In this document: piece by piece, positions 14,045-34,315 of the stretch | How the letters are laid out: every line of letters begins with the position of its first letter | Numbering within the stretch: position 1 is the first letter of the stretch | NCBI GenBank assembly: GCA_017656145.1 | Contig: JACDOI010000015.1 | Coordinates: 1-48,735, forward strand | DNA: 48,735 nt | DNA from: Bacillota bacterium | Lineage (GTDB): Bacteria; Bacillota; Limnochordia; Limnochordales; ZCTH02-B6 | Direction of reading: 5' to 3' | Position numbers and translations under genes: made by a program | Notes under the pieces: generated by a model | Seen by the model: the letters and a program-made list of their open reading frames with translations, nothing else | The model's database searches: none | Told to the model about the DNA's origin: nothing

Positions 14045-14497
14045 ATGGTCAGCTTGAGGCGGTTCACGCGCATGGCGAACCGGTTGTACGATCGGATCCC
14101 GCAGCGGTTTCTGGTCGAACTGAACGGAGGAATCATCATCTCCGAAGAAGCCGAGCAGCGGGATCCGGACTTGCCCGACGTGTACATTCTCGGCGAGTAC
14201 GTCGAGGATCCGTACGGACTCGGCCGCTACATCGTCCTCTACTACGGCTCCTTCCGCGCCCTGTTCGGCGACAGCCCCCCAGACGTTTGGGAGGCGGAAC
14301 TGTGGGAGACGCTGCTCCACGAGATTCGCCATCATCTCGAATCGCTGGCCGGCGTCGACGATCTGGAAATCGAAGACATGCGGCAGCTGGCCGAGTTTCG
14401 CCGCTGGGCAGAAGAGCAAGAGCACCGGAGCCGGCGCCCGCCTACGCGCCAGGGCGAAACCGGCCCGCCAGGGCCCGCCGGCCCAGCTCCCCCATGA
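14045..14497 (+). CDS. small zincin-like metallopeptidase family protein
   Basis: This 150-residue protein matches the PF06262-type (Zincin_1) family: an N-terminal FLVELNGGIIISEEAEQRDP block, an YILGEYVEDPYGLGRYIVLYYGSF segment, and the HExxH-type LLHEIRHHLE motif near residue 98 with a later ED pair. It is probably a cytoplasmic zinc peptidase with unknown target. The last 25 residues are a Gly/Pro-rich low-complexity tail that overlaps the 3' end of the opposite-strand gene by 56 bases. GGAGGTAGACC precedes ATG 14045. Confidence 0.85.
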   Translation: MVSLRRFTRMANRLYDRIPQRFLVELNGGIIISEEAEQRDPDLPDVYILGEYVEDPYGLGRYIVLYYGSFRALFGDSPPDVWEAELWETLLHEIRHHLESLAGVDDLEIEDMRQLAEFRRWAEEQEHRSRRPPTRQGETGPPGPAGPAPP

Positions 14498-15638: not shown

Positions 15639-15661
15639 CACGACCGCCACCTCCCGCCGGA

Positions 15662-17315: not shown

Positions 17316-17366
17316 CGGTTTCTCTCCTTTGCTCCCGCTGTTCGCAAGTTTCGCTGGCTGCACAAG

Positions 17367-18461
17367 CTAGCGGGTGATGGGGCCAATCACATACGCCCGC
17401 TCGATGATCAAGGCGATCCGATCTCCAGGAGCCAGATCGCCCATGGGTTCCCCTTCGATGCGCAACCGCTTGTTTCCGACTTCCACGACGTAGTCCATCC
17501 TATTGCCCAGGTATGTGCGGCGCACCAAGACCGCCGCAAAGCCCCCTTCTGGCTGCTCGGCGGATGAGATGCGGCCGGCGATGCGCACGTGTTCGGGGCG
17601 CACAAGGACTTTTACCAGCTTGCCCGGGGCGAGGTCCGGCGGGCACTCGGCCCCAATCCGCGCGCGGCCGTCCAGCACGTCCAGGACGGCCTCGCTCCCC
17701 TCACGCGCGATCACGGTCCCCTGCAGGAAATTGGCCAGCCCCACAAACCGGGCCACGAACTCGCTGGCCGGGCGCTCGTAGATTTCCTCGGCCGGCCCCA
17801 CCTGTTCGACGCGCCCCCGGTTCATCACCACGATGCGATCGGACATGGCCATGGCCTCGGCCTGGTCGTGGGTGACGTAGATGATGGTGACCTGCATCCG
17901 CCGCTGCAGCTCCTTGATCTCGAAACGCATGGACTCGCGCAACTGCGCGTCCAAGTTGCTGAGGGGCTCATCCAAAAGCAGCACCCGCGGCCGCATGACC
18001 AGCGCCCGGGCAAGAGCCACCCGCTGCTGCTGGCCGCCGGAAAGCTGGTTGGGGTACCGGTCGGCCAAGTGATCGAGCTGGACCAGGGAAAGAATTTCTT
18101 CCACCCGCTGCCGGATCTCGTTCCGGGGCCGCTTTTGCACCTTGAGCGGGTAGGCCACGTTGGCGAATACGTTCATGTGCGGCCACACCGCGTACGATTG
18201 GAACACCATGCCCATGCGGCGCCTCTCCGGCGGGATGAAAATGCCATCCCGGGGCGACGCCAGGCAGTCGTCGTCCAGGAAGATGCGTCCTCCGGTAGGT
18301 TCCACAAAGCCGGCGATCATGCGCAGGGTGGTCGTCTTGCCGCATCCGGACGGGCCCAGCAAGGTAACGAATTCCCGGTCGGGAATCGTCAGGTCCAAGT
18401 CCGCGACCGCCGTCGTCTCGCCGTACCGCTTGGTGATGCCCTCCAAACGCACCTGTGCCAC
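17367..18461 (-). CDS. ABC importer ATPase of the Fe3+/putrescine/phosphonate class
   Basis: This 364-residue ATPase has Walker A GPSGCGKTTT, signature LSGGQQQRVALARAL, Walker B VLLLDEPLSNLD and switch His IYVTHDQ. A C-terminal TOBE-like regulatory domain (about 280-360) follows, as in FbpC, PotA and AfuC. GTG 18461 follows GGAGGG. It lies 17 bases after the permease gene and energises that permease. Substrate class is discussed under the binding protein. Confidence 0.93.
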   Translation of the reverse strand: MAQVRLEGITKRYGETTAVADLDLTIPDREFVTLLGPSGCGKTTTLRMIAGFVEPTGGRIFLDDDCLASPRDGIFIPPERRRMGMVFQSYAVWPHMNVFANVAYPLKVQKRPRNEIRQRVEEILSLVQLDHLADRYPNQLSGGQQQRVALARALVMRPRVLLLDEPLSNLDAQLRESMRFEIKELQRRMQVTIIYVTHDQAEAMAMSDRIVVMNRGRVEQVGPAEEIYERPASEFVARFVGLANFLQGTVIAREGSEAVLDVLDGRARIGAECPPDLAPGKLVKVLVRPEHVRIAGRISSAEQPEGGFAAVLVRRTYLGNRMDYVVEVGNKRLRIEGEPMGDLAPGDRIALIIERAYVIGPITR

Positions 18462-18478
18462 GAAATGTCCCTCCAACA

Positions 18479-20284
18479 CTAAAAACCGAGCTTGCCCCGG
18501 GTGACCGCTCGAACCGTCACGTTCAGCACGAGCACGACTATGATCAGCACCACGGAGAGGGCCGCCGTCAGAAGCATCTTCCCTTCCTCGTGCAGGGAAT
18601 AGACCAGCACGCCGATGGTCTCGTTGCCCACAGCCCACAAGAGCGCGGACAAGGTCAGCTCGGTCAAGCTCGGGATGGCCGCCAGGAACCACGCCGCCAC
18701 CAATCCGGGCCGAATGAGCGGCCAGACTACGTCGGCGAACGAGCGCCACGGCGAAGCCCCGGACATGCGGGCCACTTCCTCCAAGGTGTCGTCGATCTGA
18801 TGCAGGTTGGAACCGACGGTGCGCACCCCAAGAACGAGAAACCGGGCCACGTACGCAACCAAAAGGAGCCAGATGGTGTTGTACAGCGCCCAATCGACAA
18901 TGGGCAGCGGTTTGAGAAAGGCCAGGATCATGCTTAAGGCCACTACCGTTCCCGGAACCGCGTAAGGGATGGCCACCAGCGCCTCCAGCACCCCCGCACC
19001 CCGGGCCCGGGCCTTCACGTTCAAGTACGCGAGGATCGTCCCCAGCAGAGCAACCACCGTGCCCGTGGCCGCGGCCAAAAACAGGCTGTTGCGGATGGCC
19101 CGGTGGACCGCCGGCAACTGGAACAGGGAGGCGTAATTGTCCCAGGTAAAGTTGCCCGCACCTAGAGGAATCCCGTACGCCCGCGTGAGCGATGTGGCCA
19201 CGATGGCCAGAATCGGTGCGAAGGTGGTGAGGCAGACGAACACAAGCAGCGCGGCGAACACCGGCCAGCGCCAGCGGCGCAGGCGCACCAGCTGGGGGGT
19301 GGTATGCTTGCCCGCGATGACCGTATAACTGCCCCGTCGCAGCAGCAAGCGCTGCGCTTGCATGGTCAGTATGGCCACACCGACCAATAGCATGGACAAG
19401 GCCGCGGCGAGCTGCAGATTGGCCTCGAGATCGAAATTGAGCACCGTCAGATAGATGCGGGTGGTCAGAACGTAAAACCGATCCGGAAAGCCGATGACGG
19501 CCGGGATACCGAAATTGCCCAAAAGGAACATGAACAACAGCACAGCGCCCGAAAAGATGCTGGGCATCATCAAGGGAAGGGTGATGTCGCGCATGGTGCG
19601 CCATGGGCTTGCGCCTGACATCTGTGCCGCCTCTTCAAGGGACGCGTCCATCCGGCTGAAGGGCCCAACGGTGACGATGTAGGGAATCGGATAGCCATAG
19701 AGGATCATCACAAATACGACGCCCCACTTGCCGTAGAGCCGCACCAGGGGATCCCACGATCCGGTCAGCCACATCCAGAACTCGTTGACATATCCCACAG
19801 GCCCAAGCAAATAGATCCAGGCAATGGCCCCGATGAAGGGCGGGATCAGGTAAGGGACGATCAGGATGGTACGGAAAAATCCCCTTCCCGGCACGTCGGT
19901 GCGGGTCACCACCCATGCCAGGGAAACCCCGATCAACACACCGCCCAGCGTGGCCCACAGGCTCACCGACAGGCTGTTGATCAGGGCGGTGAAGTTCTCA
20001 TTGCGGGTGAACACCCGCTCAAAGTTGTACAGCGAGAACTGGCCGTCCACCAGCAGGCTGTTCCACACCAGGGTGATGGCCGGATACGCGACGAACAACC
20101 CGACGACGATCAACAGGGCCAGCCAGACCAGGTACATGGAGGATGCGCTTCGCACCTTGCGCCATATCCGCACCTGGAGCGCGGAGGGTCCAGGTGTGAT
20201 CGCCAACGCCGTGATCCCCCGCTTTCGCGCTGGAGAGGGAGCCTGCGGGCCCCCTCCCCGGTCTATCCGGGACTCAGCTCTCAA
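18479..20284 (-). CDS. two-domain ABC importer permease (FbpB/AfuB type)
   Basis: The roughly 601-residue permease has two fused membrane domains, each with about six helices. Each has an EAA loop: EEAAQMSGASPWRTMRDITLP and EEVARMSGASPWRSFADVVWP. This internal duplication is typical of ferric, hexose-phosphate and 2-aminoethylphosphonate importers. The start is uncertain; a TTG at 20284 overlaps the end of the binding-protein gene by 11 bases and has a GGAAGAG upstream, but the first 40 residues have no clear homology and a later start is possible. Confidence 0.9.
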   Translation of the reverse strand: MRAESRIDRGGGPQAPSPARKRGITALAITPGPSALQVRIWRKVRSASSMYLVWLALLIVVGLFVAYPAITLVWNSLLVDGQFSLYNFERVFTRNENFTALINSLSVSLWATLGGVLIGVSLAWVVTRTDVPGRGFFRTILIVPYLIPPFIGAIAWIYLLGPVGYVNEFWMWLTGSWDPLVRLYGKWGVVFVMILYGYPIPYIVTVGPFSRMDASLEEAAQMSGASPWRTMRDITLPLMMPSIFSGAVLLFMFLLGNFGIPAVIGFPDRFYVLTTRIYLTVLNFDLEANLQLAAALSMLLVGVAILTMQAQRLLLRRGSYTVIAGKHTTPQLVRLRRWRWPVFAALLVFVCLTTFAPILAIVATSLTRAYGIPLGAGNFTWDNYASLFQLPAVHRAIRNSLFLAAATGTVVALLGTILAYLNVKARARGAGVLEALVAIPYAVPGTVVALSMILAFLKPLPIVDWALYNTIWLLLVAYVARFLVLGVRTVGSNLHQIDDTLEEVARMSGASPWRSFADVVWPLIRPGLVAAWFLAAIPSLTELTLSALLWAVGNETIGVLVYSLHEEGKMLLTAALSVVLIIVVLVLNVTVRAVTRGKLGF

Positions 20285-21278
20285 AGCGCTCTTCCCAAGT
20301 CGTCTTCAGTTCCTCCCGGTGCTCCTGGATATACTCGCTGTCAGTAGGGGCAATTTGCAACCGTTCCAGATCCGGCGTCCCCGGCGGCACGCCCATGTTC
20401 GGCCGCACCGGGATGTATCCCTGCTTGACGAACAAGCGCTGCCCCCGCTCGGACAGCAAGTACTCAACGAACGCCGTCGCCGCCCCCGGGTTCCGGCTGG
20501 TCTTCAGCACCGCCACAGGGGTCGGGATGAGGATGGCGCCCTCATCGGGCCAGATGTGCTCTACGGGCGAACCCTGGTTCTTGAGGTTGCGGATCATGAA
20601 GTCGACGACGGACACCATCGCGTATTCGCCTGATGCCAGCTTTTGAGCGAGCACGCCGTTGGAGCGCTCGATGACGACGCCGTGTTCCTGCAACTGCTCG
20701 AAGTAGGACCAGCCGAACTCAGGGATGTTCACCAAGGTTCCCAGCGTGGAGAACGCGGCACCCGAATAAAGGGGGCTGGCCATCGCGATGCGCCCACGGA
20801 TGTTGGGATGGAGCATGTCCTTCCAGCTGGTAGGCGGCTCCCCGCGCCAACGCCGGGTGTTGTAGGCGATCACGTTGAAGATCTGGCGCACCTCGTGGTA
20901 GCGGCCGCCCGCGTAGCGGAAATGTTCAGGCAGGTCGGCAACATGGATGTCGAGCGGCAGCAGCAGATCCTCGCGGGCCAAGTAGTCAAAGAAGGCGATG
21001 TCGGCAAACCAGATCACGTCCGCCTGGATCTCGCCGGCCTCCATCTCCGCCTGGAGTTTGGCGATCACCGGGCCCGTTCCCGACCGAAAGATTTCCACCT
21101 TCACGCCCGGATGCAGTTGCTCGAAATCCTGGGCCATCTCGCTCACCTGATCCAGCGATTCGGACGTGTACAAGGTGATGGTGCCCGACGCGCCGGCCCA
21201 GGCCACAGGGCTTAGCAGCAGCACAAGAAGCGGGACGATCGCCAACAAGAAGTTACGGCCTAGAAGCGCCGTTTTCAC
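20274..21278 (-). CDS. periplasmic-type solute-binding protein of the Fe3+ family, non-iron variant
   Basis: This is a 334-residue extracytoplasmic binding protein with a signal peptide (cleavage near ALA/AWA at about residue 25) and a type II fold. It matches the FbpA/AfuA/AepX superfamily: ITLYTSESLDQV, ADVIWFAD, and the late EYLLSERGQRLFVKQGYIPVRP motif. The twin-tyrosine iron site near residue 220 of true ferric proteins is replaced by VSVVDFM, so an organophosphate or sugar phosphate is more likely than iron. GTG 21278 follows GGAGGAGG. It heads the importer operon, and a TACAGATGTAA motif lies 33 bases upstream. Confidence 0.88.
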   Translation of the reverse strand: MKTALLGRNFLLAIVPLLVLLLSPVAWAGASGTITLYTSESLDQVSEMAQDFEQLHPGVKVEIFRSGTGPVIAKLQAEMEAGEIQADVIWFADIAFFDYLAREDLLLPLDIHVADLPEHFRYAGGRYHEVRQIFNVIAYNTRRWRGEPPTSWKDMLHPNIRGRIAMASPLYSGAAFSTLGTLVNIPEFGWSYFEQLQEHGVVIERSNGVLAQKLASGEYAMVSVVDFMIRNLKNQGSPVEHIWPDEGAILIPTPVAVLKTSRNPGAATAFVEYLLSERGQRLFVKQGYIPVRPNMGVPPGTPDLERLQIAPTDSEYIQEHREELKTTWEERFES

Positions 21279-21310
21279 CGTCGATTCCTCCTCCTCACCG
21301 GTGGAGCCTG

Positions 21311-21479
21311 TACAGATGTAACGCCAATCAAGGTCCGCATCCCACGCAGTTCCAGTGAGCCGTACCACCTCCCCCACGTGAACTGTCGTTCAAATATGCA
21401 GACAAATGTTTCTCAAGGAGTTGTGTTCGCCGGCCCATCCTGCCCCCCTACCCCTGCGGTGAGAATTTACAGATGTAAA
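21311..21479 (-). promoter_or_regulatory. paired TACAGATGTAA motif, putative operator of the importer operon
   Basis: The 11-mer TACAGATGTAA occurs at 21311-21321 and again at 21468-21478. The second copy is part of a perfect 14-bp palindromic frame, TTTACA-GA-TGTAAA (21466-21479). The first lies 33 bases before the binding-protein GTG. The copies are 157 bases apart in an otherwise gene-free region that is AT-richer than its surroundings. They could be two half-sites for a repressor looping over the promoter. The regulator is not evident in the window. Confidence 0.4.
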
Positions 21480-21591: not shown

Positions 21592-22602
21592 TTATGCCAT
21601 GCCGCCCACCCGCACGCGGCGGCTCTCCCGCATCAACCGCCGGCATGCCTCGACGATGTCGTCTTCCTGAGGAACCGCTGCTTTCTCCAACCGGGGATTG
21701 TACGGGATGGGCACATCTTTGCCCGCCAGGCGCAACACCGGCGCGTCCAAGAAGTCGAAGGCTTCGCTTTCTACGATGGTGCCGACGATTTCGCCGCCGA
21801 ATCCGGCGAACTTGTTGGCCTCGTGGACGACCACCGCCCGGCCGGTCTTGCACACCGACGCGATGACCGTTTCGGCATCGAGCGGCCGCAGGCTTCGCAG
21901 GTCGATGACTTCCGCCGAAATGCCCTCGTCGGCCAGCCGTTCGGCCGCTTGCAGGCTTCTAGGCACCATCACCGACGTTGCGACGACGGTCACATCCCGC
22001 CCTTCCCGCCGGACGGCGGCTTTGCCGATGGGCACGGTGTACTCGTCCTCGGGCACGGGCCCTTTCGTCTTGTACAACAGCTTATGCTCGAACACCACGA
22101 CCGGGTTGTTGTCCCGGATAGCCGCCTTCAACAGCCCTTTCGCATCATGAGGAGTAGCCGGCGCGACCACTTTCAGCCCGGGGATGTGCATAAACCACGT
22201 CTCCAGGCTCTGCGAATGCTGGGCCGCGGCGCCGGTGCCCGAGCCGGCGGGAGTTCGCACGACCATGGGCACCTCAGCCTTGCCCCCGAACATGTACCGC
22301 ATCTTGGCCGCCTGGTTGACCAGCTGATCCGCGCCGATGGTCAAGAAGTCCGAAAACTGGACTTCCGCCACCGGGCGCATGCCGACCACCGCCGCTCCGA
22401 CTGCCGCACCGATGATGGCCGCCTCGGACAAAGGCGTATCCATCACCCGGTCCTCACCGAACTCTTCCACAAGACCGAGCGTCACGCCGAACGCGCCGCC
22501 GTAGACGCCGATGTCCTCGCCCAGGAGAAACACCCGCGGGTCCCGGCGCATCTCCTCCGCCAACGCTTCTCGAACCGCCTGAGCATACGTGATCTCGCGC
22601 AT
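21592..22602 (-). CDS. 2-oxoacid/acetoin dehydrogenase E1 beta subunit
   Basis: This 336-residue protein is the beta subunit of a thiamine-diphosphate E1 heterotetramer. Signature parts are [42 protein letters not shown], the AQHSQSLE segment and the [11 protein letters not shown] block. Its length (336) fits AcoB and PDH E1-beta alike. Cobinding with the alpha subunit, it forms the thiamine-diphosphate site. ATG 22602 has a GGGGGATCAGG site. It is the last gene of the operon, 14 bases after the alpha gene and 36 bases before the terminator. The ligand is discussed in the findings. Confidence 0.95.
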
Positions 22603-22616
22603 GACCTGATCCCCCG

Positions 22617-23612
22617 CTAGGCGTAAACCCCGTCGGCCAGCTGGGCTACGTCCGGTTCCGGCTGCTCTTCGGCAAACTCGATGGCCGCCTGGATTTCCGC
22701 CTTGATGTCTTCACCGATGCGCTCCGCCTCGGCCGGCGACAGGATCCCGGCCGCGATGAGCCGCTCCTCAAGCCGCCGGATGGGACACCGCGCTTTCCAC
22801 TCTTCGATCTCTTCCCGGGTTCGGTACCGGTTGGCATCGCTTTTGGAATGGCCCCGCCACCGGTACGTCCGGGTCTCGATGAGCGTCGGTCCTTCGCCCG
22901 CGCGGGCCCGGTCCACGGCCTTTCGGGCCGCTTCATACACGGCTAAGACGTCATTGCCGTCCACCGAAACGCCGGGCAAGCCGTACGCCCGGGCCCGGGC
23001 TTCGATGTCGGGATTGCCGAGGCCTTTTTCGACCGGCATGGACATGGCGTACTGGTTGTTTTCGCACACGTACACCACCGGAAGCCGGAAGACGCTCGCG
23101 AAGTTCACCGCTTCGTGAAACGACCCTTGAGCCAGGGCGCCGTCGCCGAAGAAGCACATGACTACCCGGCCAAGCCCCAGCTTCTTGCACGCCAGCGCCG
23201 CGCCGGTGGCGATGGGGATGCCGCCGCCGACGATGCCGTTGGCGCCCAAGTTGCCCGCGGCGACGTCGGCAATGTGCATGGACCCGCCCCGCCCGCGGCA
23301 ATAGCCGGTCTCCTTGCCCCGCAGTTCGGCCATCATCTTCGGGATCGACGCGCCTTTCGCGATCCCATGCCCGTGGCCCCGGTGGGTGCTGGTGATGTAG
23401 TCGTCGGGGGCCAGCGCTTCAATGGCTCCGACGGCTGACGCTTCTTCGCCGATGTAAAGATGGAACGTTCCCCATATGCGGCCCGCCTGAAACAGCTTAT
23501 CGACCTCTTCCTCGAAATGCCGGATGCGGCGCATCTGGCGGTACATGTGCAGCAGCCGCTCGGGCCCAAGCCCCAATTGCCGGGCTTTCGCCTGCCAGTC
23601 CTGTTCCTTCAT
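22617..23612 (-). CDS. acetoin-dehydrogenase-type E1 alpha subunit
   Basis: This 331-residue thiamine-diphosphate E1 alpha subunit has the diphosphate-binding motif [17 protein letters not shown] followed by the VVYVCENN end. The upstream [10 protein letters not shown] and [12 protein letters not shown] motifs are typical of acetoin dehydrogenase AcoA and related enzymes. The protein is also of AcoA length, shorter than most PDH E1-alpha subunits. It would decarboxylate a 2-oxoacid or cleave an acyloin and hand the acyl group to E2 lipoate. It lies between E2 and E1-beta, an order (E2, alpha, beta) unlike the usual alpha, beta, E2. Confidence 0.93.
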
Positions 23613-23645: not shown

Positions 23646-24995
23646 CTACAAGAGCAGTAGCTCCGGGCGCTGGCTGAGCTCAGCAATCTGCCGGAGAAAC
23701 TCCGCCGCCGGAACCCCGTCCACGACGCGATGATCAAAGGAAAGACTGAGCACCATCATGGACCGGGCGCACACCTGGCCGTCCCGGATGACCGGCTTTT
23801 CCACGATGCGGCCCAGGCCCAAGATGGCCGTTTCGGGCGCGTTGATGATGGGCGTGAAGGCGTCGATCCCGTACGCGCCCAGATTGCTGATGGTAAACGT
23901 TCCTCCCCGCATCTCGTCCGGGGACAGCTCCCCGCGGCGGGCAGCTTCCACCAGCCTTCGCCGCTTCCGGGCGACGGCTTGAATGCCTAGGCTCCCGGCC
24001 CGGCGAATGACGGGCACCAATAGTCCCCCCGGAACCGCGACCGCGATGCCGATGTGCGCCTCGGGTTCCAGGACGATCTCGTCGCCTTCCAGCCGGGCAT
24101 TGAGGTAGGGGTGGTCGGCAAGCGCCCGGGCGGCAATGCGCACAAACAGATCGACGTACGAGATGCCGTCCCCGCCCCGGTTCCGGTCCGCTTCGTTCAA
24201 GGCCGAACGAACCCGAACCAGCTCCGTTACGTCCGCCTCGGTGGTGAGGGTCACGTGAGGGGCCGTAAAGGCGCTCTTGGTCATCCGCTGGGCGATGGCG
24301 CGGCGCATGGGGCTGATGGGAACCCGCCGGGGCACCGGGGAGACGCCTCCGGGGGCCGTCGCCGGCGACGCTGAGCTTGCGCCTCCGGCGACGGCCGCAG
24401 GCTCCGCCGAACTCTCGGCGGATGGCGTCTTGGAGGCCTTCTGCACGCCCGCGGTCCCCAGCCCCGTCCGCGCAGCGTACTCCTCCACGTCAGCCCTGGT
24501 CACCCGCCCCCGGGGCCCGCTGCCTGGCACGGCGGCCAGGTCGAGGCCCAATTCCCGGGCCATTCGCCGCGCCACGGGCGTCGCCCGCACCCGCCCGCCG
24601 CCCCCGGTCTGGGCCCGTTCCTCAGGCGCGCCTGCTTCGGCCTGGAGAATCTCCGCCAGGCCGGAACCGTCCGGAGCCTTCCCACCGGCCGCGGTTGATT
24701 CGGCCGGGCCTTGCGGCGGGCTGCCGGCAGCCGGCAACAGGGCCGAGATGTCCTCATCGGCTGCGGCAATGATCGCGATGGGCGTGTTGATGGGCACGGT
24801 CGTGTCAGGGCCGACTAAGATCTTGCGCAACACGCCGCTCGCGGGGGCCTCTACCTCGATGTCGACCTTGTCGGTCAAGACGCTGAGGAGCGGCTCCCCT
24901 TCCTGTACGGGCTCCCCTTCCGCCTTGAACCACTTGGTGACGGTGCCTTCCTCCATCGTCATGCCCAGTTTCGGCATGGTGACCTGCGTCGCCAC
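23646..24995 (-). CDS. dihydrolipoamide acyltransferase (E2) with one lipoyl domain
   Basis: This 449-residue E2 has one lipoyl domain (1-80) with the lipoylated lysine in the [12 protein letters not shown] motif. A long Ala/Gly/Ser/Pro linker follows, then a peripheral-subunit-binding domain (about 135-170; [21 protein letters not shown]). The catalytic domain ends with [16 protein letters not shown], the active-site His/Asp motif. It transfers the acyl group from lipoate to CoA. GTG 24995 follows AGGAGGGT. No E3 (dihydrolipoamide dehydrogenase) gene is in the window, so a shared E3 must be used. It is first of the three complex genes. Confidence 0.95.
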
Positions 24996-25007: not shown

Positions 25008-26330
25008 CTAGGACGCGGCCGCCGCGGACGGTCGGCGGCCCGTCTCATCCATCGACTGTTGTAGCCGCCACAGGCTGACCAGCGTCGACGCCTCATCCAT
25101 CTGGACGTCGTCCAAGGTGAGGACCGTTTCCGCGGGAACGTCCCGCACGACCGTCGTGCCCTGTCCGGCCAGCCCAAGCGGCAACGCCCCCAGCTCCCGG
25201 GCCTGCTCCGCCGGCATGATGCGGCCGTATACCGTGAATCCGCCGATGCCGTCCAGCCGCTGGCCCGCTTTCAGGGGCTGTTTGGCCACTGCGACAGTCT
25301 CGGCCCGGTGAAACCGCTGCACGATCGTGGGGCGGCCATCCAGCGCGGCCCGGGCGATGCTGACCGGCGTCTCCAGGCTGCACAGGTGGAACGGGCGGTA
25401 CAGCAGGAAATACGGTCCTTCGCCCATGCCCAGATATGTCATCTCGCGACGGACTTCGGGCTGATCGGTCCGCACGACGACGAACACCCCAGGCGCCACG
25501 CCCCGGACGTAGTCGACGACGCCGGTGCGGGACAAAATGCCGCCCTCGGCCTGTGGGCGGAACAGCCGCACTAGGTCGTCCAAGCCCCCCGCGGGACCGT
25601 GCATCCCAGGCCGGTCGGGCACAAGCCCGGTGGCGTTGGCGAGGATGGTCATCTCGATCATGGTCTTGCTCCCGTCGACGAACGAGGCGAGCATCCGGGG
25701 GTTCATGCCCTGCCGCCGGGCCCGGTCCGCGACGGTGTCGGGAGTGGCCTGCACGTCCAGCGGGTTGTTCTTGCCCTTACCGGCCGCGACCACCTCGAAT
25801 CCCAACCCGTCGGCGAACTCAAACAACTCGTAGCACACAGCCGGCTCGTCTCCCGCCGCGCCCGTGTACACGACGCCTGCCATGCGGGCCAGCCGGTACA
25901 GCATCCGGCCGACGGTCGCATCCGCCTCGGCATTGAGCATGACCACGTGCTTCTTGCGGGTGATAGCTTCCAGGGCTATGCGTGCACCGGCCTCGGGATG
26001 GCCGGTAGCCTCCACCACGACATCGACATGGGGAATGTCCAGAGCGATGTCCGCGCTGGACAGGGCCAAAACCCCGCCTTCCTCCACCCATCCGGCGGCT
26101 TCAGACACCCTCGCCGGTTGCCGAATGGACCCTTCCGGCACCCCGGCGGCGCGGTGCGCCTCAACGGCCCTGCCGGGCACCACGTCGGCCACCGCGACGA
26201 CGCGGATGCCCCGCATCCCCGCCACCTGGGCCACGAGCCCCCGGCCCATTTGTCCGGCTCCGACGACGGCCACCCGCACCGGACAACCTTGCTCCTCCAG
26301 CTCACGCAACCGGTCGTTGTACCCGAGCAT
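25008..26330 (-). CDS. COG4091 SAF-domain oxidoreductase, DXR-like (DRL) family
   Basis: This 440-residue protein begins with an NAD(P)-binding Rossmann domain ([13 protein letters not shown] near residue 20). It continues with the characteristic [36 protein letters not shown] and [15 protein letters not shown] motifs. It ends with a SAF domain (from about 340: [19 protein letters not shown] and YGR). Such proteins are often annotated as homoserine dehydrogenase-like. The family also contains the Brucella DRL enzyme, which interconverts 1-deoxy-D-xylulose 5-phosphate and 2-C-methyl-D-erythritol 4-phosphate. Not all members need have that activity. ATG 26330 has GGAGGCGGG upstream. It lies between the PTS enzyme I gene (145-base gap) and E2 (12-base gap), which suggests a catabolic step on a PTS-imported phosphorylated polyol. 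Confidence 0.8.
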
Positions 26331-26475: not shown

Positions 26476-28218
26476 TTACTGTCTCGCCCCGTCCTCAGGC
26501 GGCCTGGCGACCCGGCAACACGTTTCCAGCACGGTCATGGCGGCCGCGCCGTCGGGGGCCGCGAGCGCCTCCTGGGCCGCGGCCAGCGCGTCTTCCCGCC
26601 GGATGGACCGGATAAACCCCTTGACATGGGCGATGCGATCCGGCGCCACGCTCAGCTCGTTCACCCCAAGGCCGGCGAAAAACGCAACAAACGGCAGCTC
26701 GCCTGCCAGCTCACCGCAAACGCTGACCCACCGGTTCTCGCGCCGGCCGACTTCGATGACATGAGCGATGGCCTTCAAGACGGCGGGATGGGCCGGCTGG
26801 TACAGTCCAGACACCTTCGGATTGGTCCGGTCGACGCCGAGAACATATTGCACCAAATCGTTGGTGCCCAGGCTGAAGAAGTCCACCCACGGAACGAACC
26901 GGTCGACCACCATCGCCGCGGCCGGCGTCTCCACCATCATGCCGACGCGGACCGAACGGGCCACCGGCAATCCGGCGTCCCGCAATTCCTGCTCCGCTTC
27001 GGCCAGCAGCTCCCGAGCGCGCCGCACCTCTCCCGGATCCGACACCATGGGGAACATGAGCCACAGCTCCTCGGGCACCGCCTGCAGCATGGCCCGCAAC
27101 TGGGGCTTGAAAATGTCCGGCCGATCCAGGCAAAACCGGATGCCCCGCCAGCCCAGGAACGGGTTCGATTCGGCCTCGAGGCCCAGCGACGGGATCGGCT
27201 TGTCTCCGCCTGCGTCCAGGGTGCGGAACACCACGGGCCGGCTGCCCATGGCCGCGACGACGCGGCGGTAGATCTCGACCTGTTCCTCCTCGGGGGGCGG
27301 CTTGTGCCGGTTCATATAGACAAATTCGGTCCGGAAAAGGCCGATGCCGTCGGCACCGGCTTCGGCCGCCCAGCCCGCCTCGTCGCAGGAAGCGATATTG
27401 GCAGCCACCATGATCCGGTGGCCGTCGGCGGTGGCCGCGGGATGCGGGTCGGAAGGTCGCCGGCGCGCCGCGCTCGCCTGCCCCGCTTGCCGGCGATACC
27501 GGGCCACGGTATTGGCGCCGGGGTGGAGGATCACCTCCCCCCGGGTGCCATCGACGATGACCAGCTCCCCCGGTGCGACGCGCCCCAGTAGGGGCCCGGC
27601 GCCCGTAACCGCCGCCAACCCGCGGGCCCGGGCGAGGATGGCGGCATGGGACATGGCTCCGCCCCCTTCCAGGACGATGCCCGCTACCGTCGTCAAGTCG
27701 AGTTCCGCCGTCTGCGAAGGGGTCATATCGCGCGCGACGATGACCCATGGGCCGTCCGCCGGGGGAGCGGTCTGCCGGGCGCCCGTCAGCTCCTGCACGA
27801 TGCGCCAGCCCACATCCCGCACGTCCCCGGCCCGCTGGCGGAAATACTCATCGTCCATCGCGGCGAAGACTTTGGCCAGTTCCTCCGCCGCACCGGCCGC
27901 CGCGTCCTCGGCCGCGGCCCCGGCCTCGATCCGCTCGCGAATGGGCCCAAGCAGTGCCGGATCTTCCAACATGAGCCGGTGGGCGTCAAACAGCGCCGCT
28001 TCGCCCGCGTGCCCTTCCGCGGCGAGGCGCATCTTCAGGCCTTCCAGTTGCTCCGACACCCGCTCCTTCGCGGCCTGAAACCGTTCCCATTCGCCGGCCG
28101 GATCCTGGCCGGAGCCGGCTGGTGACGCCCGTCGAGGGCCGCCGTCCCAAATCCATGCAGAGCCGATGCCGATCCCCGGGGCTGCCCCGGTCCCTCGCAC
28201 CACTTCCTGCCGATTCAT
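26476..28218 (-). CDS. ptsI: PTS enzyme I (phosphoenolpyruvate-protein phosphotransferase)
   Basis: This 580-residue enzyme takes phosphate from phosphoenolpyruvate and passes it to HPr. The swivelling-domain phospho-His is His191 in GGAMSHAAILARARG. The PEP-binding domain is complete: DGIGLFRTEF, FRTLDAGGDKP, NPFLGWRG, the SLGTNDLVQY and VCGELAGE (catalytic Cys) motifs. ATG 28218 overlaps the HPr stop by 4 bases (ATGA). A dedicated enzyme I inside a substrate-specific PTS operon is unusual, because ptsHI normally serves all permeases from its own locus. Confidence 0.96.
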   Translation of the reverse strand: MNRQEVVRGTGAAPGIGIGSAWIWDGGPRRASPAGSGQDPAGEWERFQAAKERVSEQLEGLKMRLAAEGHAGEAALFDAHRLMLEDPALLGPIRERIEAGAAAEDAAAGAAEELAKVFAAMDDEYFRQRAGDVRDVGWRIVQELTGARQTAPPADGPWVIVARDMTPSQTAELDLTTVAGIVLEGGGAMSHAAILARARGLAAVTGAGPLLGRVAPGELVIVDGTRGEVILHPGANTVARYRRQAGQASAARRRPSDPHPAATADGHRIMVAANIASCDEAGWAAEAGADGIGLFRTEFVYMNRHKPPPEEEQVEIYRRVVAAMGSRPVVFRTLDAGGDKPIPSLGLEAESNPFLGWRGIRFCLDRPDIFKPQLRAMLQAVPEELWLMFPMVSDPGEVRRARELLAEAEQELRDAGLPVARSVRVGMMVETPAAAMVVDRFVPWVDFFSLGTNDLVQYVLGVDRTNPKVSGLYQPAHPAVLKAIAHVIEVGRRENRWVSVCGELAGELPFVAFFAGLGVNELSVAPDRIAHVKGFIRSIRREDALAAAQEALAAPDGAAAMTVLETCCRVARPPEDGARQ

Positions 28219-28484
28219 GATCCCTCACCCAGCCCCCCGGCGATCAGGCGGGTGAGGGCGGCAACCGCCTCTTCGGCGTCCGGGCCGTCCGCGGTCAGCC
28301 GGACCTCAGTTCCCGGTTTGACCGCCATCGAGAGTACGGCCAGAATGCTCTTGGCGTCCGCGGAACGGTCTCCGGCAAAGATCCGGACGTCCGATTGGAA
28401 TTTTCTCGCTTCCTGCACAAGCAGCGCGGCCGGCCGCGCGTGCAGACCGCTGGGATTGACGACCCGGACAATCGATTCCTTCAC
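28215..28484 (-). CDS. ptsH: PTS phosphocarrier protein HPr
   Basis: The 89-residue protein has the HPr signature NPSGLHARPAALLV with the phospho-His near residue 16. The regulatory-serine region is AKSILAVLSM, so HPr kinase control of the Ser is possible. GTG 28484 overlaps the glucitol IIA stop by 4 bases, and its own stop overlaps ptsI, so the three genes are coupled. An upstream in-frame extension belongs to a chance reading frame over the IIA gene. Confidence 0.95.
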   Translation of the reverse strand: MKESIVRVVNPSGLHARPAALLVQEARKFQSDVRIFAGDRSADAKSILAVLSMAVKPGTEVRLTADGPDAEEAVAALTRLIAGGLGEGS

Positions 28485-28891
28485 GGCCGACCCGACCTTT
28501 CCGGAGCCTGGGGCCCGGCCTCGATAGACAACACCATACCCGGTTCCAGAGAGGGCACGGGCGCCGCGACGACGCAGAGGTCCCCGGGCAGTTCGGGTTC
28601 TTTGCGGCCATTGAACTTGATCACCGCATGCCCCAGTTCCCGCAGCCGCTCGTTGGCTCCGTCCCCCACCGCCGTAATGGGATACGGGCGACCGTTCACC
28701 CGCAGGATGTCCCCGGACGAGCACGGCCCGTTCCATACCTCGGTCCGATGGACGACGGACACCGCTTGCAACTCCGGCGGCGCCTGCTCGCCGAACAGCA
28801 CGAGCATGCCCGCCTGGATGAACTCTTCCGCCTCGGGTCCAATGCGGACCACGACGCCTTGCCACCTCACCTGTGGTTGCACCGCCATCAT
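28481..28891 (-). CDS. srlB: PTS glucitol/sorbitol-type IIA component
   Basis: This protein of about 136 residues matches PTSIIA_gutA: the LVLFGEQAPPELQ segment, the HRTEV segment with a candidate phospho-His, the DILRVNGRPYPITAVGD motif and the GHAVIKFNG motif. It accepts phosphate from HPr and passes it to the IIB domain. Start choice: ATG 28891 has GGAGGCGG upstream; a GTG 18 bases further up is possible. It is followed directly by ptsH. Confidence 0.88.
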   Translation of the reverse strand: MMAVQPQVRWQGVVVRIGPEAEEFIQAGMLVLFGEQAPPELQAVSVVHRTEVWNGPCSSGDILRVNGRPYPITAVGDGANERLRELGHAVIKFNGRKEPELPGDLCVVAAPVPSLEPGMVLSIEAGPQAPERSGRP

Positions 28892-28947
28892 TGCCGCTTC
28901 CGCCTCCACTCCCCATCCACAGCGCAGGGCCCCGCCAAGCCCGCGCC

Positions 28948-29988
28948 TTAAGCGTACAGACCAAAGCTAGCGAAGTACGCAATAATCACCGCCGCCGGTC
29001 CCGTGATGAGCCGGGAAATGAGCACCGCCGGAACCCCGTCCTCGACGGTTTCAGGCTTGGCCTCCCCCAGCGTCAACCCCACGGGCACAAAGTCGCAGCC
29101 CACCTGGGGATTGATCGCGAACAGCGCCGGCAGCGCGAGGGAGGGCGGGATATTTCCCCGGCCAATTTCCACCCCCACCAGCACGCCGACTACTTGCGCG
29201 ATGACCGCCCCCGGACCCAGGACCGGCGACAGAAACGGCAGGGCACAGATGACCGAGATGATAAACAGGCCTGGGAGCGTCCCCGCCAGGGGAGTCAAGA
29301 TATTGGCGATGACCTCGCCGATCCCCGAAGCCAGGATGATGCCGATCAGCGTCGCCACAAAGGCCATGAAGGGCAGGACGTTGCGCAGCACTTGTTCGAT
29401 GGTCTCTCGCCCTGCCTGGTAGAAGATGCCAACTACTCCGCCCGTACTGCGGCCGATGCGAGCGATGAACTGGCTGATCCCGCCCCGGCTGGCTGGAACC
29501 GTCGCCGCGGGCGAGGCCGAACCGGTATCGGGCCGGGATTCCGCAGCCGCCGGCGGTTCCGGCGCGGTCAAGGACCCTGCCGCCGGAGCCGCTTCGTTCG
29601 GCTCCGCGACCCCCTCGGGCGCCAGCCGGACGTTTCGGGTCGTCACCCCGGACACGAAGTTATCCTCCCGAATGTACCGCAGCAGCGGTCCCGACGGAAG
29701 CGTGGGCGTGACGTCCACCGTCAGCACCCCCATCCTCGGGTACACCCCGCACCGGGCTGTGCCGCCGCAGTCGATGACGACGCACGCCATGTTCTCCGGA
29801 GGCACCGAATTGCGGAACGCGTCCACCACCTGCGCCCCGGTCAGCTCGGCGATGGCCTGAGCCACGGGGTGGATGCCGCCGCCGGTGATGCAGGCGACGA
29901 TGTTCTTTTCGTTCGTCGGTGTAATGATGAGCGGTCCGCCCCAGCCGCCGGGCCCCCGCTCGACGTACACGCTCCTGTACTCGCCCAT
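28948..29988 (-). CDS. srlE: PTS glucitol/sorbitol-type IIBC component
   Basis: The 346-residue protein fuses a IIB domain (about 1-140) to a membrane IIC domain (about 185-345). The phospho-Cys motif [14 protein letters not shown] matches that of E. coli SrlE. The N-terminal [17 protein letters not shown] motif is also typical. The domains are joined by a Pro/Ala-rich linker. ATG 29988 follows AAGGGGG; a GTG at 30006 overlapping the srlA stop is the alternative. Together with SrlA it forms the sugar-alcohol channel and phosphorylates the substrate during entry. Confidence 0.93.
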
Positions 29989-30002
29989 GCTCCCGTCCCC
30001 CT

Positions 30003-30560
30003 TCACCGGGCCAGCCCGGCCGAAACGCCCCGGGCTGCCTGCTGCTGGCGGCGGGCCATCATCTGCGCGGTGATGGCCTCGGTGACGATGCCCCTCAGCA
30101 AGATAACGACGACGCCCACGAGAAAATAGCGCACGGCCAGCGGCCCCAGGGGCAGCCCCAGCTCCTGAATGCCCTGGGCGATCCCCAGCCAGACGAACAG
30201 TTCAGCGGGATTGGCGTGCGGAAACAGGCCGGTGATCGGATGGACGAACGACACCGCCGCATCGTAGAAGGCAGGCTTGTATCTTTCGGGCAAAAACCGG
30301 CCAAAGGTGTACGCCATCGGGTTGGTGAGGAAGAAAACAGCCAATATCGGCAACAGCGTGTACCTCAAGATGATGTTACCGCTGAGACGAACCGCCCACC
30401 GGTCGACCCGGGCCTGGCCGACCAGTTTGATCACTGCGTTGACCGCGGTGATCAGGCAGATGAGCACCGGCAAAATTCCCCCGGCCAAGTTGAGGAACAC
30501 TTGGCCCCCTTCCTGAAACAGGCCGATGAACCACTCGGCCGCCCCCGCGAGGAAATCCAT
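30003..30560 (-). CDS. srlA: PTS glucitol/sorbitol-type IIC2 component
   Basis: This 185-residue membrane protein has about four helices and the SrlA motifs: [13 protein letters not shown] at the N terminus, the [20 protein letters not shown]-like block (here [16 protein letters not shown]), and [18 protein letters not shown]. It pairs with the IIBC protein as the transmembrane part. ATG 30560 follows GGAGGGC. The 36-base gap from gutM and the close srlE gene show one transcript. Confidence 0.93.
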
Positions 30561-30595
30561 GCGTTTGCCCTCCTCTCCACATTGCACTTGCCGGA

Positions 30596-31027
30596 TCACA
30601 CGCCACTGGCCAGGCTCTTCGCTTCCTCCCCCCGGCCTTTCACCATCTCATCGAAGATGCGTTCCAACGCCGTTCGGGTCGCCTCTCTGAGAGCCGCACC
30701 TCCTTCCCACGGGCCGTTATCGAGACGCTGGGCCATCTCCGCCACATTCCAATCCCTCACGGCGGGGTAATCCTGCAGACGGGCGAACACGCTGAATCCC
30801 GCCAGTCGATGGCCTTCCACGATGCGCCCGGCCGGGTCCGCCACCAGAATGACCATCGCCCCGGGCTTGCCCGGGCGGCGGAACGTGCCGACACCCATGT
30901 AGCCCGCCCGGTACCTGCGCTGGATGTCCGCCACCGCCTGCCGAACATGGCGGATTTGCCGGTAGGCCAGCACGGACTGGACTCCCCACGCGAGGCCCAA
31001 GACGAGGATGACCCATTGCCACGCCAC
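30596..31027 (-). CDS. gutM: glucitol operon activator-type protein GutM
   Basis: This 143-residue protein has one N-terminal membrane helix and matches GutM (PF06923): the helix, a VRQAVADIQRRYRAGYMGVGTFRR block and the GMVILVADP-like segment. In enteric bacteria GutM is an accessory activator of the glucitol operon, but how it works is not settled. It is upstream of the permease genes here rather than downstream as in E. coli. GTG 31027 follows GGGGGAGA. Confidence 0.85.
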   Translation of the reverse strand: MAWQWVILVLGLAWGVQSVLAYRQIRHVRQAVADIQRRYRAGYMGVGTFRRPGKPGAMVILVADPAGRIVEGHRLAGFSVFARLQDYPAVRDWNVAEMAQRLDNGPWEGGAALREATRTALERIFDEMVKGRGEEAKSLASGV

Positions 31028-31070: not shown

Positions 31071-32321
31071 TCACTGGAAGAGCCTGGACAGCTGCAGGAG
31101 CACCCACGTCAACGGGTTGGCGCCGTCGCCGATGCTTGAGATTTCCGCGGCGCCCGCCGGGATATCGAACTGCGCTGCGATGGCCGCCGCTGTATGCAGC
31201 GACGCGACGCTGGTGGACATCAAAAGCCCGACCGTAATGGCCACCATCCCGATGAGCACCGACCGGAACACGTTGCCCCGAACAATCGGCGCGATCATGC
31301 AGACGACAAACGGAATCGTCGCCAGGTCCCCGAAGGGCAACAGCCTGTTGCCGGGGACGATGACCGCAAGGAGCAGCGTAACGGGAACGAGGATGAGGGC
31401 TGTGGCGATCGAGGCCGGATGCCCGACCGCGACGGCCGAGTCGAGGCCGATGTAAAATTCGCGTCCTTGAAACCGCCGCCGCAAATACTCTCGGGCCGCC
31501 TCGCTGACGGGCATCAAACCTTCCATCAAGAGGCGGACCATGCGGGGCATGAGCAGCATGACGGCCGCCATGCTGACCCCGAGCTGAAGCGTCTCCTGCA
31601 CGCTGTAACCGGCCAAAAGCCCCAGCGCGATGCCGAGGAGCAGGCCGAGCATCATCGGATCGCCGAACACCCCGAGCCGCTGTTGAATCTTGGCCGTGTC
31701 CAGATCGATATCGCGCACGACCGGGATGCGGTCGATGAGCGCGTTCAGCGGGATAGCGATGGGCACGTACGCCGCCGAGAGCCCGTGCGGCAACGAGATG
31801 CCGGGTACACCGTAAAACTCCTGGATCGGCTTGGCAGTCCAGTCCGCCAGCTTCAGTATGATGGCGGCATTGACCGCCGCGGCCGCCACTCCCAGCCACA
31901 GCTTTCCTGTGGCTTCGGTGACCAGCGCGCCGGTAAACGCGAAGTGCCAGAAGTTCCACAAGTCGATGTTCAGCGTCTGGGTGGTGCGGGTAAGGAGCAT
32001 CACCAGGTTGACCAGCAACCCGACGGGGATGACGACGGCCCCCACTTGGGAGGCGAACGCGATGGCCGCCGCCGCCGGCCATCCGACGTCCAGCACATTG
32101 AGCTGGATGCCGAACCGTTCAACCATGGCCTGGGCCGCAGGCCCCAAGCTGCCCGTCAGCAAGCCGATGACCAATCCGATCCCGACGAACCCGACCCCAA
32201 TGGTCACCCCTGCCCTGAACGCCCGGCCCGCTTTCAGACCGAACGCGATTCCCATGACGAAGATGATAAGCGGCAGCATGACCGACGCACCCAGGTCGAG
32301 AATGAACTGGATGACCGGCAT
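31071..32321 (-). CDS. PTS galactitol-type IIC component
   Basis: The 416-residue protein is a GatC-like IIC permease with about ten membrane helices. Typical blocks are the VIQFILDLGASVMLPLIIF start, FWHFAFTGALV, and the later AVAVGHPASIATALILVPV block. It forms a full permease with the IIB and IIA proteins encoded just upstream. It is distinct from, and unrelated in fold family to, the glucitol-type SrlA/SrlE pair in the same operon. The ATG at 32321 has GGAGGTGC upstream. Galactitol need not be the substrate; the family moves several polyols. Confidence 0.92.
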   Translation of the reverse strand: MPVIQFILDLGASVMLPLIIFVMGIAFGLKAGRAFRAGVTIGVGFVGIGLVIGLLTGSLGPAAQAMVERFGIQLNVLDVGWPAAAAIAFASQVGAVVIPVGLLVNLVMLLTRTTQTLNIDLWNFWHFAFTGALVTEATGKLWLGVAAAAVNAAIILKLADWTAKPIQEFYGVPGISLPHGLSAAYVPIAIPLNALIDRIPVVRDIDLDTAKIQQRLGVFGDPMMLGLLLGIALGLLAGYSVQETLQLGVSMAAVMLLMPRMVRLLMEGLMPVSEAAREYLRRRFQGREFYIGLDSAVAVGHPASIATALILVPVTLLLAVIVPGNRLLPFGDLATIPFVVCMIAPIVRGNVFRSVLIGMVAITVGLLMSTSVASLHTAAAIAAQFDIPAGAAEISSIGDGANPLTWVLLQLSRLFQ

Positions 32322-32338: not shown

Positions 32339-32623
32339 TCAGTCTTTCAGCGCCTCAATGATCCGGCGGGAAAGCTCTTCCTCCCCTACCCCCGTCAAGA
32401 ACCCGATCGCGTTGATGACGGGTACGGACACCGGGGTCGCGATGGTCGTCGTGGCCACGACGAGGCTCGCCCCGGGCGCGTGCGTCGCCACTTCTGTCGC
32501 CTTGCACTGGATGATGTCCACGTCGATGCCCTCGCGCCGGCAAGCTTCGGCCACCTTTTCGGCCACCACCGTCGACGTGGCAATCCCCGTTCCGCATGCG
32601 ACCACGACCCGCTTGCGGTTCAC
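32339..32623 (-). CDS. PTS galactitol-type IIB component
   Basis: This 94-residue protein has the phospho-Cys loop VACGTGIATSTVVAEKV near residue 10, as in GatB. It takes phosphate from the IIA protein and passes it to the substrate through the IIC permease. GTG 32623 follows GGGAGGTG. It lies 17 bases from the IIC gene. Confidence 0.94.
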   Translation of the reverse strand: MNRKRVVVACGTGIATSTVVAEKVAEACRREGIDVDIIQCKATEVATHAPGASLVVATTTIATPVSVPVINAIGFLTGVGEEELSRRIIEALKD

Positions 32624-32680: not shown

Positions 32681-33160
32681 TTACTCGAATTTTCCGAATA
32701 CATTCCTGAGCACAGCGAGCGCCGCGTCCTTATCCCGGGCACGTTTGAGCATGTTGAGCCGCTCGTCGTCTTGGATGAATTGGATAAGGCGGCGCAACGC
32801 GTCCAGCTGTCCTTCGGAATCCCGGATCGCCAGCATGAACACCAGCTGCACCGGCACGGCGGCCTCAGGATTGCCCATTTCCCCGAAGAAGACCGGCCGG
32901 GTCAGCTTGGCGAAACCGATAGCCGGCACGAGCACGAATTCGGGGTCCGCATGGGGGATGGCGACACCTGCTCCCCGGGCCGGTAACCCCGTAGGCGACA
33001 CCCGCTCCCGCTCCCGCACGGCCGCCCCGTACCCGGGCCTCACAAACCCCCGTTCCGCCATGCCCTCGGCCAAGCGGTTGATGACCGCATCAGCCGAATC
33101 CGCCTCCAGCTCCAGTTCCAGCACGGCCAGACGCAATCGGGCACCCCCGGACAGATACAT
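32681..33160 (-). CDS. PTS fructose/galactitol-type IIA component
   Basis: The product of about 159 residues is a PTS IIA type-2 domain (PF00359): INRLAEGMAERGFV, the phospho-His motif GAGVAIPHADPEF, and the C-terminal QDDERLNMLKRARD segment. It accepts phosphate from HPr. The start is uncertain: ATG 33160 has no clear ribosome site, and GTG 33196 would add 12 residues. It is the first gene of the long operon, 162-198 bases from the SorC-type regulator. Confidence 0.85.
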   Translation of the reverse strand: MYLSGGARLRLAVLELELEADSADAVINRLAEGMAERGFVRPGYGAAVRERERVSPTGLPARGAGVAIPHADPEFVLVPAIGFAKLTRPVFFGEMGNPEAAVPVQLVFMLAIRDSEGQLDALRRLIQFIQDDERLNMLKRARDKDAALAVLRNVFGKFE

Positions 33161-33196
33161 TTGACTTTTTGGATCATCATATGTTCGCTGGCACAC

Positions 33197-33358: not shown

Positions 33359-34315
33359 TCAGTCGCTGGCCAAAACCCGCAGGGCGGTCCGCTCGTCGGT
33401 GACGAGCACGTCGACGTAGCCGCCCCGCAAAGCGCCCCGGATGGCATCGGCCTTTCGCTCGGAGCCGGCCACGGCGATGACTTGCGGGATGCGCCGGAGG
33501 GTTTCCAGCGGCATGGCGATGGCCCGTCCCGACAGCGAGGAGACGACGGGGCGCCCGTCCCGGTCGTAGTGCCGCCCCAGGATGTCGCCGACGGCGCCCA
33601 GCCGTACCGCTTCCGCCAGCTCCTCCGCGCTGAGAGCTCCCCAGCGGATGAGAGAGCATTGCGAGCTCACGTCGCCGATGCCGACCAGCGCCTTGGTGGC
33701 CGCCGCGCCGGCTTTTAGGGTCTGGGCGATGCCGTTATCGGACAACAGGGCGTCCCGGATGCCCGGCGTATCCACGAACGCCGGCGTATGAAGCATCCGG
33801 GTGTCCCCGTGCAACTTTTCCGCGACAATGCGGGCGATATCCAGGGGCGTAACGAGGCCGCCCGCGTTCAACCCACCCATGAGCTGGACGACCGTGACAT
33901 TGCGCACATCCTTGGGGCGCAGGTGACGGGCCACCTCCCGCAGCGTCACGCCCCAAGCGGTGCCGATGACGTCCCCCTCGGTCACGGTCCGCTCAAGGTA
34001 CATGGCGCCGAACTGGCCCAGCGCCTCCAAGTTCTGTTCCTCGGTAGCGCCGGACGGTGCGACGACGGCCTCCTTGAGCCCAAATCTGGCCTTCAGGGCT
34101 TCCTCCAGCTCCATCCGTCGAAGGGAGGGGTGGTCGATGCGGATCTGCACAATGCCCTCGTTCCGGGCCCGGGCCAGCAGGCGCAGCACTTTTATCCGCG
34201 ACATCCCGAGCCGGTCGCCGATCTCTTGCTGGGTCATCCCCTGGCGGTAATACATCCACGCCACCCGGGCCATGAGGGCCCGGTCCTGTTCGGAAGCGCC
34301 GCCTGCTTGAGTCAT
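33359..34315 (-). CDS. SorC/DeoR-type sugar-binding transcriptional regulator
   Basis: This 318-residue regulator has an N-terminal helix-turn-helix (about 20-60; MTQQEIGDRLGMSRIKVLRLLARARNEG). A SorC-type sugar-phosphate-binding domain (about 65-315) follows, with the GDVIGTAWGVTLREVA, VVQLMGGLN and VGIGDVSS motifs. Such proteins usually respond to a phosphorylated sugar made by the genes they control. The position just upstream of the PTS operon, same strand, makes it the likely controller. ATG 34315 overlaps the stop of a TIM-barrel remnant and has GGAGGAG upstream. Confidence 0.92.
   Translation of the reverse strand: MTQAGGASEQDRALMARVAWMYYRQGMTQQEIGDRLGMSRIKVLRLLARARNEGIVQIRIDHPSLRRMELEEALKARFGLKEAVVAPSGATEEQNLEALGQFGAMYLERTVTEGDVIGTAWGVTLREVARHLRPKDVRNVTVVQLMGGLNAGGLVTPLDIARIVAEKLHGDTRMLHTPAFVDTPGIRDALLSDNGIAQTLKAGAAATKALVGIGDVSSQCSLIRWGALSAEELAEAVRLGAVGDILGRHYDRDGRPVVSSLSGRAIAMPLETLRRIPQVIAVAGSERKADAIRGALRGGYVDVLVTDERTALRVLASD

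Follow-up and report, generated by a model that had tools for sequence, protein, structure and literature searches.

The window, by which we mean the whole 48,735-nucleotide stretch of DNA analysed here, probably carries a catabolic operon that would run the first two steps of the MEP pathway in reverse. In the proposed route, a DRL oxidoreductase working in reverse with NAD+ would convert MEP to DXP, an E1 alpha/beta would attack the ketone of DXP with its ThDP and release D-glyceraldehyde 3-phosphate, and the two-carbon unit would be passed to the lipoamide of E2 and leave as acetyl-CoA, with the E3 being encoded elsewhere in the window genome. The cleavage step would amount to the acetoin dehydrogenase reaction performed on a longer, phosphorylated alpha-hydroxyketone. 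The operon would take up and phosphorylate a branched sugar alcohol, 2-C-methyl-D-erythritol being the likeliest substrate of the pathway, and the SorC/DeoR regulator at its head would probably sense a phosphorylated intermediate. The cleavage of DXP is deduced from comparative and active-site evidence together with known chemistry, and we found no report of methylerythritol catabolism or of DXP cleavage by an E1 complex in the open-access literature. Since DXP is also an intermediate of isoprenoid synthesis, some lineages may use this E1 to make it. We therefore also put forward, much more tentatively, that a distinct E1 family (alpha T49 plus K/R257, beta T123-G124) could act as a reversible DXP lyase/synthase, serving in most hosts in 2-C-methyl-D-erythritol degradation with an NAD-type DRL and being the missing DXP synthase in the window's dxs-less family.

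The DRL and its operon

The DRL gene, for which the initial annotation gave no strand, lies on the minus strand; it is open throughout its length and starts at an ATG (26330) that is preceded, approximately 10 nt away, by a GGAGG ribosome site. Its product is matched strongly by PF21135 (DRL_cat; 237 bits, E 1e-70) and weakly by the SAF domain (22.3 bits against a cut-off of 21), and the Brucella DRL structures (PDB 3UPL/3UPY) match residues 9-427 with an E of 6e-105. The initial annotation had described the core motifs of COG4091 as intact, which was borne out, GMHGP being among the motifs present, albeit with SAF at the low score given above. The active-site residues agree with those of Brucella DRL as well, in that K185, K187, T223 and R312 correspond to Lys191, Lys193, Thr229 and Arg320, all four of which are kept and, as substrate-site and dimer residues, have been named as important for DXR-II (PMC3847144). 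Judged by its sequence, the protein is a DXR-II/DRL enzyme, and it departs from the biosynthetic type in its predicted cofactor and in its setting. The residue at the end of Rossmann beta-strand 2 usually selects NAD (if acidic) or NADP. At this position the window DRL has Asp49, where Brucella DRL has SARR, and NAD rather than NADP is the predicted cofactor, which gives a provisional answer to a question of preference that the initial annotation had left open. The non-acidic beta2 end of the NADPH type is absent from the window DRL as it is from most family members, which also have Asp; NADPH dependence is a trait of the biosynthetic Brucella enzyme and no proven criterion for the DXR-II family.

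The gene lies in one co-directional minus-strand run of 14 genes (34315-21592) that extends from the SorC/DeoR regulator to E1 beta (Table 1), and only 12 bp separate DRL from E2. The bracketing of DRL by PTS enzyme I (upstream, 26476-28218) and a lipoate-dependent complex (downstream, E2-E1 alpha-E1 beta, 24995-21592) was thus correctly recognized at the outset, and all of these genes are co-directional. Beyond that earlier description, the run holds a complete gat-type EII complex (A/B/C) and a complete glucitol-type one (SrlA/E/B), together with GutM, HPr and the SorC/DeoR-type regulator, and the families of the glucitol PTS were all matched (PF03608, PF03612/PF07663, PF03829 and PF06923). 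When used as a query, the HPr found matches beside other cassettes, while an ortholog of the regulator (71-73% identical) heads the E2-E1 locus of two members of the window's family (G002 and G004).

Table 1 Genes of the minus-strand run that contains DRL, in order of transcription.
Feature	Position	Strand	Support
SorC/DeoR-type sugar-phosphate-responsive regulator, first gene of the run	33359..34315	-	NF053881, 246 bits
PTS EIIA, galactitol/fructose type	32681..33196	-	
PTS EIIB, galactitol type	32339..32623	-	
PTS EIIC, galactitol type	31071..32321	-	TIGR00827 above cut-off
GutM, glucitol operon activator family	30596..31027	-	PF06923
PTS EIIC2, SrlA (glucitol/sorbitol family)	30003..30599	-	PF03608
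PTS EIIBC, SrlE	28948..30006	-	NF049924 above cut-off
PTS EIIA, SrlB	28481..28909	-	PF03829
HPr, ~89 aa, overlaps the PtsI start	28215..28484	-	translation
PTS enzyme I (PtsI)	26476..28218	-	TIGR01417 above cut-off
DRL/DXR-II oxidoreductase, 440 aa	25008..26330	-	PF21135, 3UPL
E2 lipoyl acyltransferase (lipoyl, E3-binding and catalytic domains)	23646..24995	-	
E1 alpha with T49 + K257 (GHSKSD) signature	22617..23612	-	
E1 beta with T123-G124 just before the active-site His	21592..22602	-	

Directly downstream of E1 beta, the minus strand encodes an ABC importer (binding protein, permease and ATPase), a xylose-isomerase-like TIM barrel and a PHP protein (15662-21377). A small zinc-ribbon-like protein, for which no convincing Pfam family was found, is encoded at 14442-15665 (minus strand) in the window and at 3267-3605 (minus strand) of locus L050; it is longer in the window and recurs beside many cassettes. 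A search of the window for RNA families found none.

Recurrence of the DRL-E1-E2 cassette

Searching for DRL in 398 genomes of the phylum and in the named genome collection returned 120 further loci, which with the window makes 121, although some are the same genome under two names and the true count is slightly lower. Of the 121 loci, 52 have an E1 no more than 12 kb away from DRL. Their hosts belong to Bacillota, Chloroflexota, Actinomycetota, Spirochaetota and Aerophobetes, and a glucitol PTS is also present in 49 of these 52. Four annotated plasmid loci add to the cassette set, three of them being alphaproteobacterial. Plasmid pRM41A of Sinorhizobium meliloti carries an ABC transporter, a sugar kinase, a regulator, DRL, E1 alpha, E1 beta, E2, lpdA and lipA, the loci of Nitratireductor and Terrarubrum combine a PTS with DRL and E1/E2, and in Priestia DRL is accompanied by E1/E2/E3, an MFS transporter and an FGGY kinase. 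The part for uptake and phosphorylation is thus swapped between cassettes (PTS, ABC transporter plus sugar kinase, or MFS transporter plus FGGY kinase) around a constant DRL-E1-E2 core, as expected if one phosphorylated compound is the shared intermediate. Some cassettes are accompanied by lipoyl synthase and others by lipoate-protein ligase.

The occurrence of DRL beside E1/E2 is no local accident, and the arrangement of PTS or kinase, DRL and E1/E2 seen in the window recurs across phyla. The linkage is seen in numerous families from several phyla as well as in alphaproteobacteria (naive binomial 1e-40), which makes it very improbable that DRL is a spare isoprenoid enzyme whose position next to a sugar PTS and an ordinary PDH or acetoin dehydrogenase is due to chance. 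Such an explanation could draw on the ability of DXR-II members to rescue dxr mutants and on their frequent coexistence with dxr (PMC3847144), but it sits poorly with the separate PDH, acetoin-DH-like and BCKDH sets of the same genome and with the private active-site residues of the linked E1, both of which are presented below.

Asp or Glu occupies the NAD-selecting position in all 56 of the 56 E1-linked DRLs scored, while a non-acidic residue (S/N/T/A) was seen in 10 scored DRLs, none of them linked to E1. Because 28 of the 38 unlinked DRLs are acidic at this position too, a comparison of phylogenetically independent pairs for acidic residue against E1 linkage was not significant (~3:0, p ~0.25). 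The DXR reaction is reversible, with an equilibrium towards MEP (Keq ~45). The use of NAD would favour oxidation by DRL in the cell.

Many loci with DRL and PTS have no E1 and harbor instead either an aldolase and TIM-like pair or a transaldolase and transketolase, implying that DRL may serve more than one route. These enzymes suit other ketose phosphates, and the PTS families found here serve polyols generally, which together lend something to the view that DRL linearises another branched polyol phosphate (e.g., apiitol phosphate to a pentulose 5-phosphate) and that E1/E2 would then cleave the ketose phosphate to a different acyl-CoA. We consider this unlikely for the window operon, given that the window DRL has the substrate-binding residues of DXR-II enzymes for which MEP formation has been demonstrated and that an acetyl-yielding 1-deoxy ketose best explains an E1 of acetoin-DH-like character.

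Several loci of other composition were also recorded. In seven of them (L063, L064, L072, L106, L108, L141 and L157), which mostly lack E1/E2, DRL is accompanied by a class-II aldolase and a TIM-like gene, perhaps reflecting another branched substrate or another way of splitting the product. A plasmid of Ligilactobacillus salivarius (L254) has DRL, a glucitol PTS, an annotated fructose-6-phosphate aldolase and a transketolase but no E1, a content consistent with a ketose 5-phosphate being formed and feeding into the pentose pathway. In genomes that lack dxr (L056, L058 and L047-L049), a second type of DRL is found next to PtsI and a transaldolase-type gene; in L056 and L058 its beta2 end is Asn-Arg, which is NADP-like, and this DRL is possibly the biosynthetic copy.

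The linked E1 and the isoprenoid pathway

The window genome holds three further E1/E2 sets, namely a PDH set accompanied by an E3 of its own, an acetoin-DH-like set with an AcoX-like gene, which we take to be AcoX, and a BCKDH-like set next to lipA/lipB. The E1 beta tree groups the cassette sequences in one clade (88/99) with these PDH, acetoin-DH-like and BCKDH paralogs outside it, and only the placement of L061 and L103 is not resolved. A weakly supported split in the tree places the cassette E1 with the acetoin-DH-like sequences rather than with PDH and BCKDH. We considered and rejected the possibility that the E1 next to DRL is an ordinary PDH, because a PDH set with its E3 exists elsewhere in the genome and the cassette E1 lies outside it.

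Two residues of E1 alpha, Thr49 (mostly Phe in others) and Lys/Arg257 in the GHS[KR]SD loop (mostly Glu or Met in others), occur together in 48 of 48 cassette sequences as well as in L061, L103, L186 and L200, and every other E1 in the comparison lacks the pair. The signature was derived without the three alphaproteobacterial E1s and the partial Priestia E1 alpha, all of which carry it wherever their sequence extends over these positions. In E1 beta, Thr123-Gly124 stands a few residues before the active-site His in 45 of 45 sequences. The window E1 alpha scores 392.5 bits with TIGR03182 (PDH E1 alpha), just below the cut-off of 393.85, compared to 457 for the genome's other set, and it has T49 and K257 in place of the Phe of GF.HL and the GHSM loop of PDH E1 alpha. 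The GHS[KR]SD loop of the linked E1 alpha corresponds to loop A around Ser264 of human PDH, which becomes ordered on ThDP binding (PMC10216297). Signature E1/E2 sets were also observed apart from DRL in the same genomes (G142:C42, L248; G165:C1, L245; G107:C35, L246), beside galactitol-type PTS or Zn-dependent dehydrogenase genes.

Chemistry of the proposed kind has precedent in PDH. The E. coli aceE mutants L633R, E636Q, E636G and Q408R produce DXP (PMC3424233); L633 and E636 lie just before His640, adjoining the positions of the E1 beta T-G pair, and Q408 follows His407 (numbering checked). Since aligning the E1 profiles with AceE by hhalign did not yield a usable match of the loops, this equivalence rests on the shared QH motif aligned by eye, and the comparison of Q408 with alpha K257 is only suggestive. 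Purified PDH makes 1-deoxyxylulose from pyruvate and glyceraldehyde, according to work cited in PMC3424233, and by analogy this is the reverse of the proposed cleavage. No DXS/transketolase-like phosphate-binding Arg or His unique to E1 beta was found, alpha K257 being the only private basic residue.

The window genome contains ispF and a canonical dxr, the latter in its usual tsf-pyrH-uppS-cdsA-dxr neighbourhood, so that the normal dxr about which the initial annotation had asked is indeed present, while a PF13292 search of this genome found no canonical dxs. All five genomes of the family (G000, the window genome, to G004) lack canonical dxs, with ispF in four of the five (not G001) and dxr shown in G000. 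The signature E1 is present in 5/5, whereas DRL and PTS occur only in the window genome; no DRL was found in G001-G004, two of which (G002 and G004) have SorC-E2-E1 alpha-E1 beta in the window's gene neighbourhood without the PTS-DRL block. Four relatives with E2-E1 and neither DRL nor PTS indicate that the E1 has some use outside the proposed catabolism, and the E1 subunits of the family are as conserved as those of PDH (81 and 87% vs. 78 and 86%).

Such a use could be a biosynthetic bypass, in which E1, with or without DRL, would decarboxylate pyruvate and join the two-carbon unit to GAP to form DXP in place of dxs, after which DRL or dxr would give MEP, much as AceE point mutants do in E. 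coli (PMC3424233). Besides the five dxs-less family genomes, the bypass finds encouragement in the absence of dxs from 16 of 24 signature-E1 genomes, when 181 of ~4,400 species lack Dxs with an unknown bypass (PMC10663253). However, the other eight signature-E1 genomes have dxs, the losses are clumped in few families, and the signature E1 is absent from dxs-less G225 and from the order-mates G006 and G009. Moreover, E2 would divert the two-carbon unit to CoA, and PTS, sugar kinases, SorC regulators and a plasmid location are ill-suited to a purely biosynthetic unit, so we regard the bypass as possible but doubtful. As a general substitute for dxs the signature E1 is unsupported, G225 and the f3 order-mates tested lacking dxs without it. 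Genomes with the MEP pathway and without canonical dxs (PF13292 at most ~45 bits) comprise G000-G004 and the order-mates G006, G009, G011 and G013, with ispF in all but G001.

The loss of dxs together with the signature E1 suggests that this E1 handles DXP, and it may also be used to make DXP alongside the catabolic role that we prefer. Families f49 and f102 have ispF without dxr and dxs, so that MEP would have to come from their DRL, which is often the one in the cassette, and in some cassette genomes the cassette DRL is the sole DXP reductoisomerase found; where dxr is missing and ispF is present, the cassette DRL is probably also biosynthetic. The most fitting view is that DRL can work in either direction and that the operon determines which. 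The earlier proposal of a catabolic rather than isoprenoid role consequently stands as to catabolism, which the presence of dxr, the predicted use of NAD and the recurrence of the arrangement support, but not as to a clean separation of the two, in view of the dxr-less cassette genomes with ispF and of a window genome without dxs. The degradation of a phosphorylated substrate, as first suggested, can be given a more specific form from the known chemistry of both enzymes, namely MEP via DXP to acetyl-CoA and GAP.

Implications and comparison with known systems

DXR-II has so far been interpreted solely in terms of isoprenoid synthesis, and its patchy and redundant distribution has been puzzling (PMC3847144). 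If our interpretation holds and many NAD-type members are catabolic, this would account for the patchiness as well as for the coexistence with dxr, and fosmidomycin-type inhibitors, which inhibit DRL, would act on a catabolic enzyme in such species. The operon would further represent a new degradation pathway and a route for the breakdown of 2-C-methyl-D-erythritol, which is a plant MEP-pathway product and an isoprene-aerosol compound. The signature E1 would in turn become a candidate answer to how DXP is synthesized in bacteria lacking only Dxs (PMC10663253).

With DXR-II/DRL of Brucella abortus (3UPL/3UPY; PF21135), the window DRL has in common a full-length match, the catalytic and fosmidomycin-site residues and a SAF-like C-terminus, while it differs in having Asp (NAD) for SARR (NADPH-type), an operon with PTS and E1/E2, and a canonical dxr in the same genome. 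Acetoin dehydrogenase (AcoA/AcoB/AcoC) resembles the cassette complex in its ThDP E1 alpha/beta and lipoyl E2, and its conversion of an alpha-hydroxyketone to acetyl-CoA and an aldehyde would be the same chemistry; the cassette E1 is set apart by T49 for Phe, GHSKSD for GHFEGD, the beta TG before His, the linkage to DRL and sugar uptake, and the lack of an AcoX-like gene in the run. The cassette E1 would share DXP, hydroxyethyl-ThDP and GAP chemistry with DXS, for which it may substitute in dxs-less relatives, yet it is no DXS by sequence (PF13292 at 19.6-20.2 bits vs. a cut-off of 21.2) and has split alpha/beta subunits with a lipoyl E2. Finally, the DXP-making aceE mutants of E. coli are likewise a PDH-type E1 that handles DXP, with changes in the same active-site segment, but they are laboratory variants of a single-chain E1, whereas the cassette E1 is a natural and widely conserved alpha/beta enzyme.
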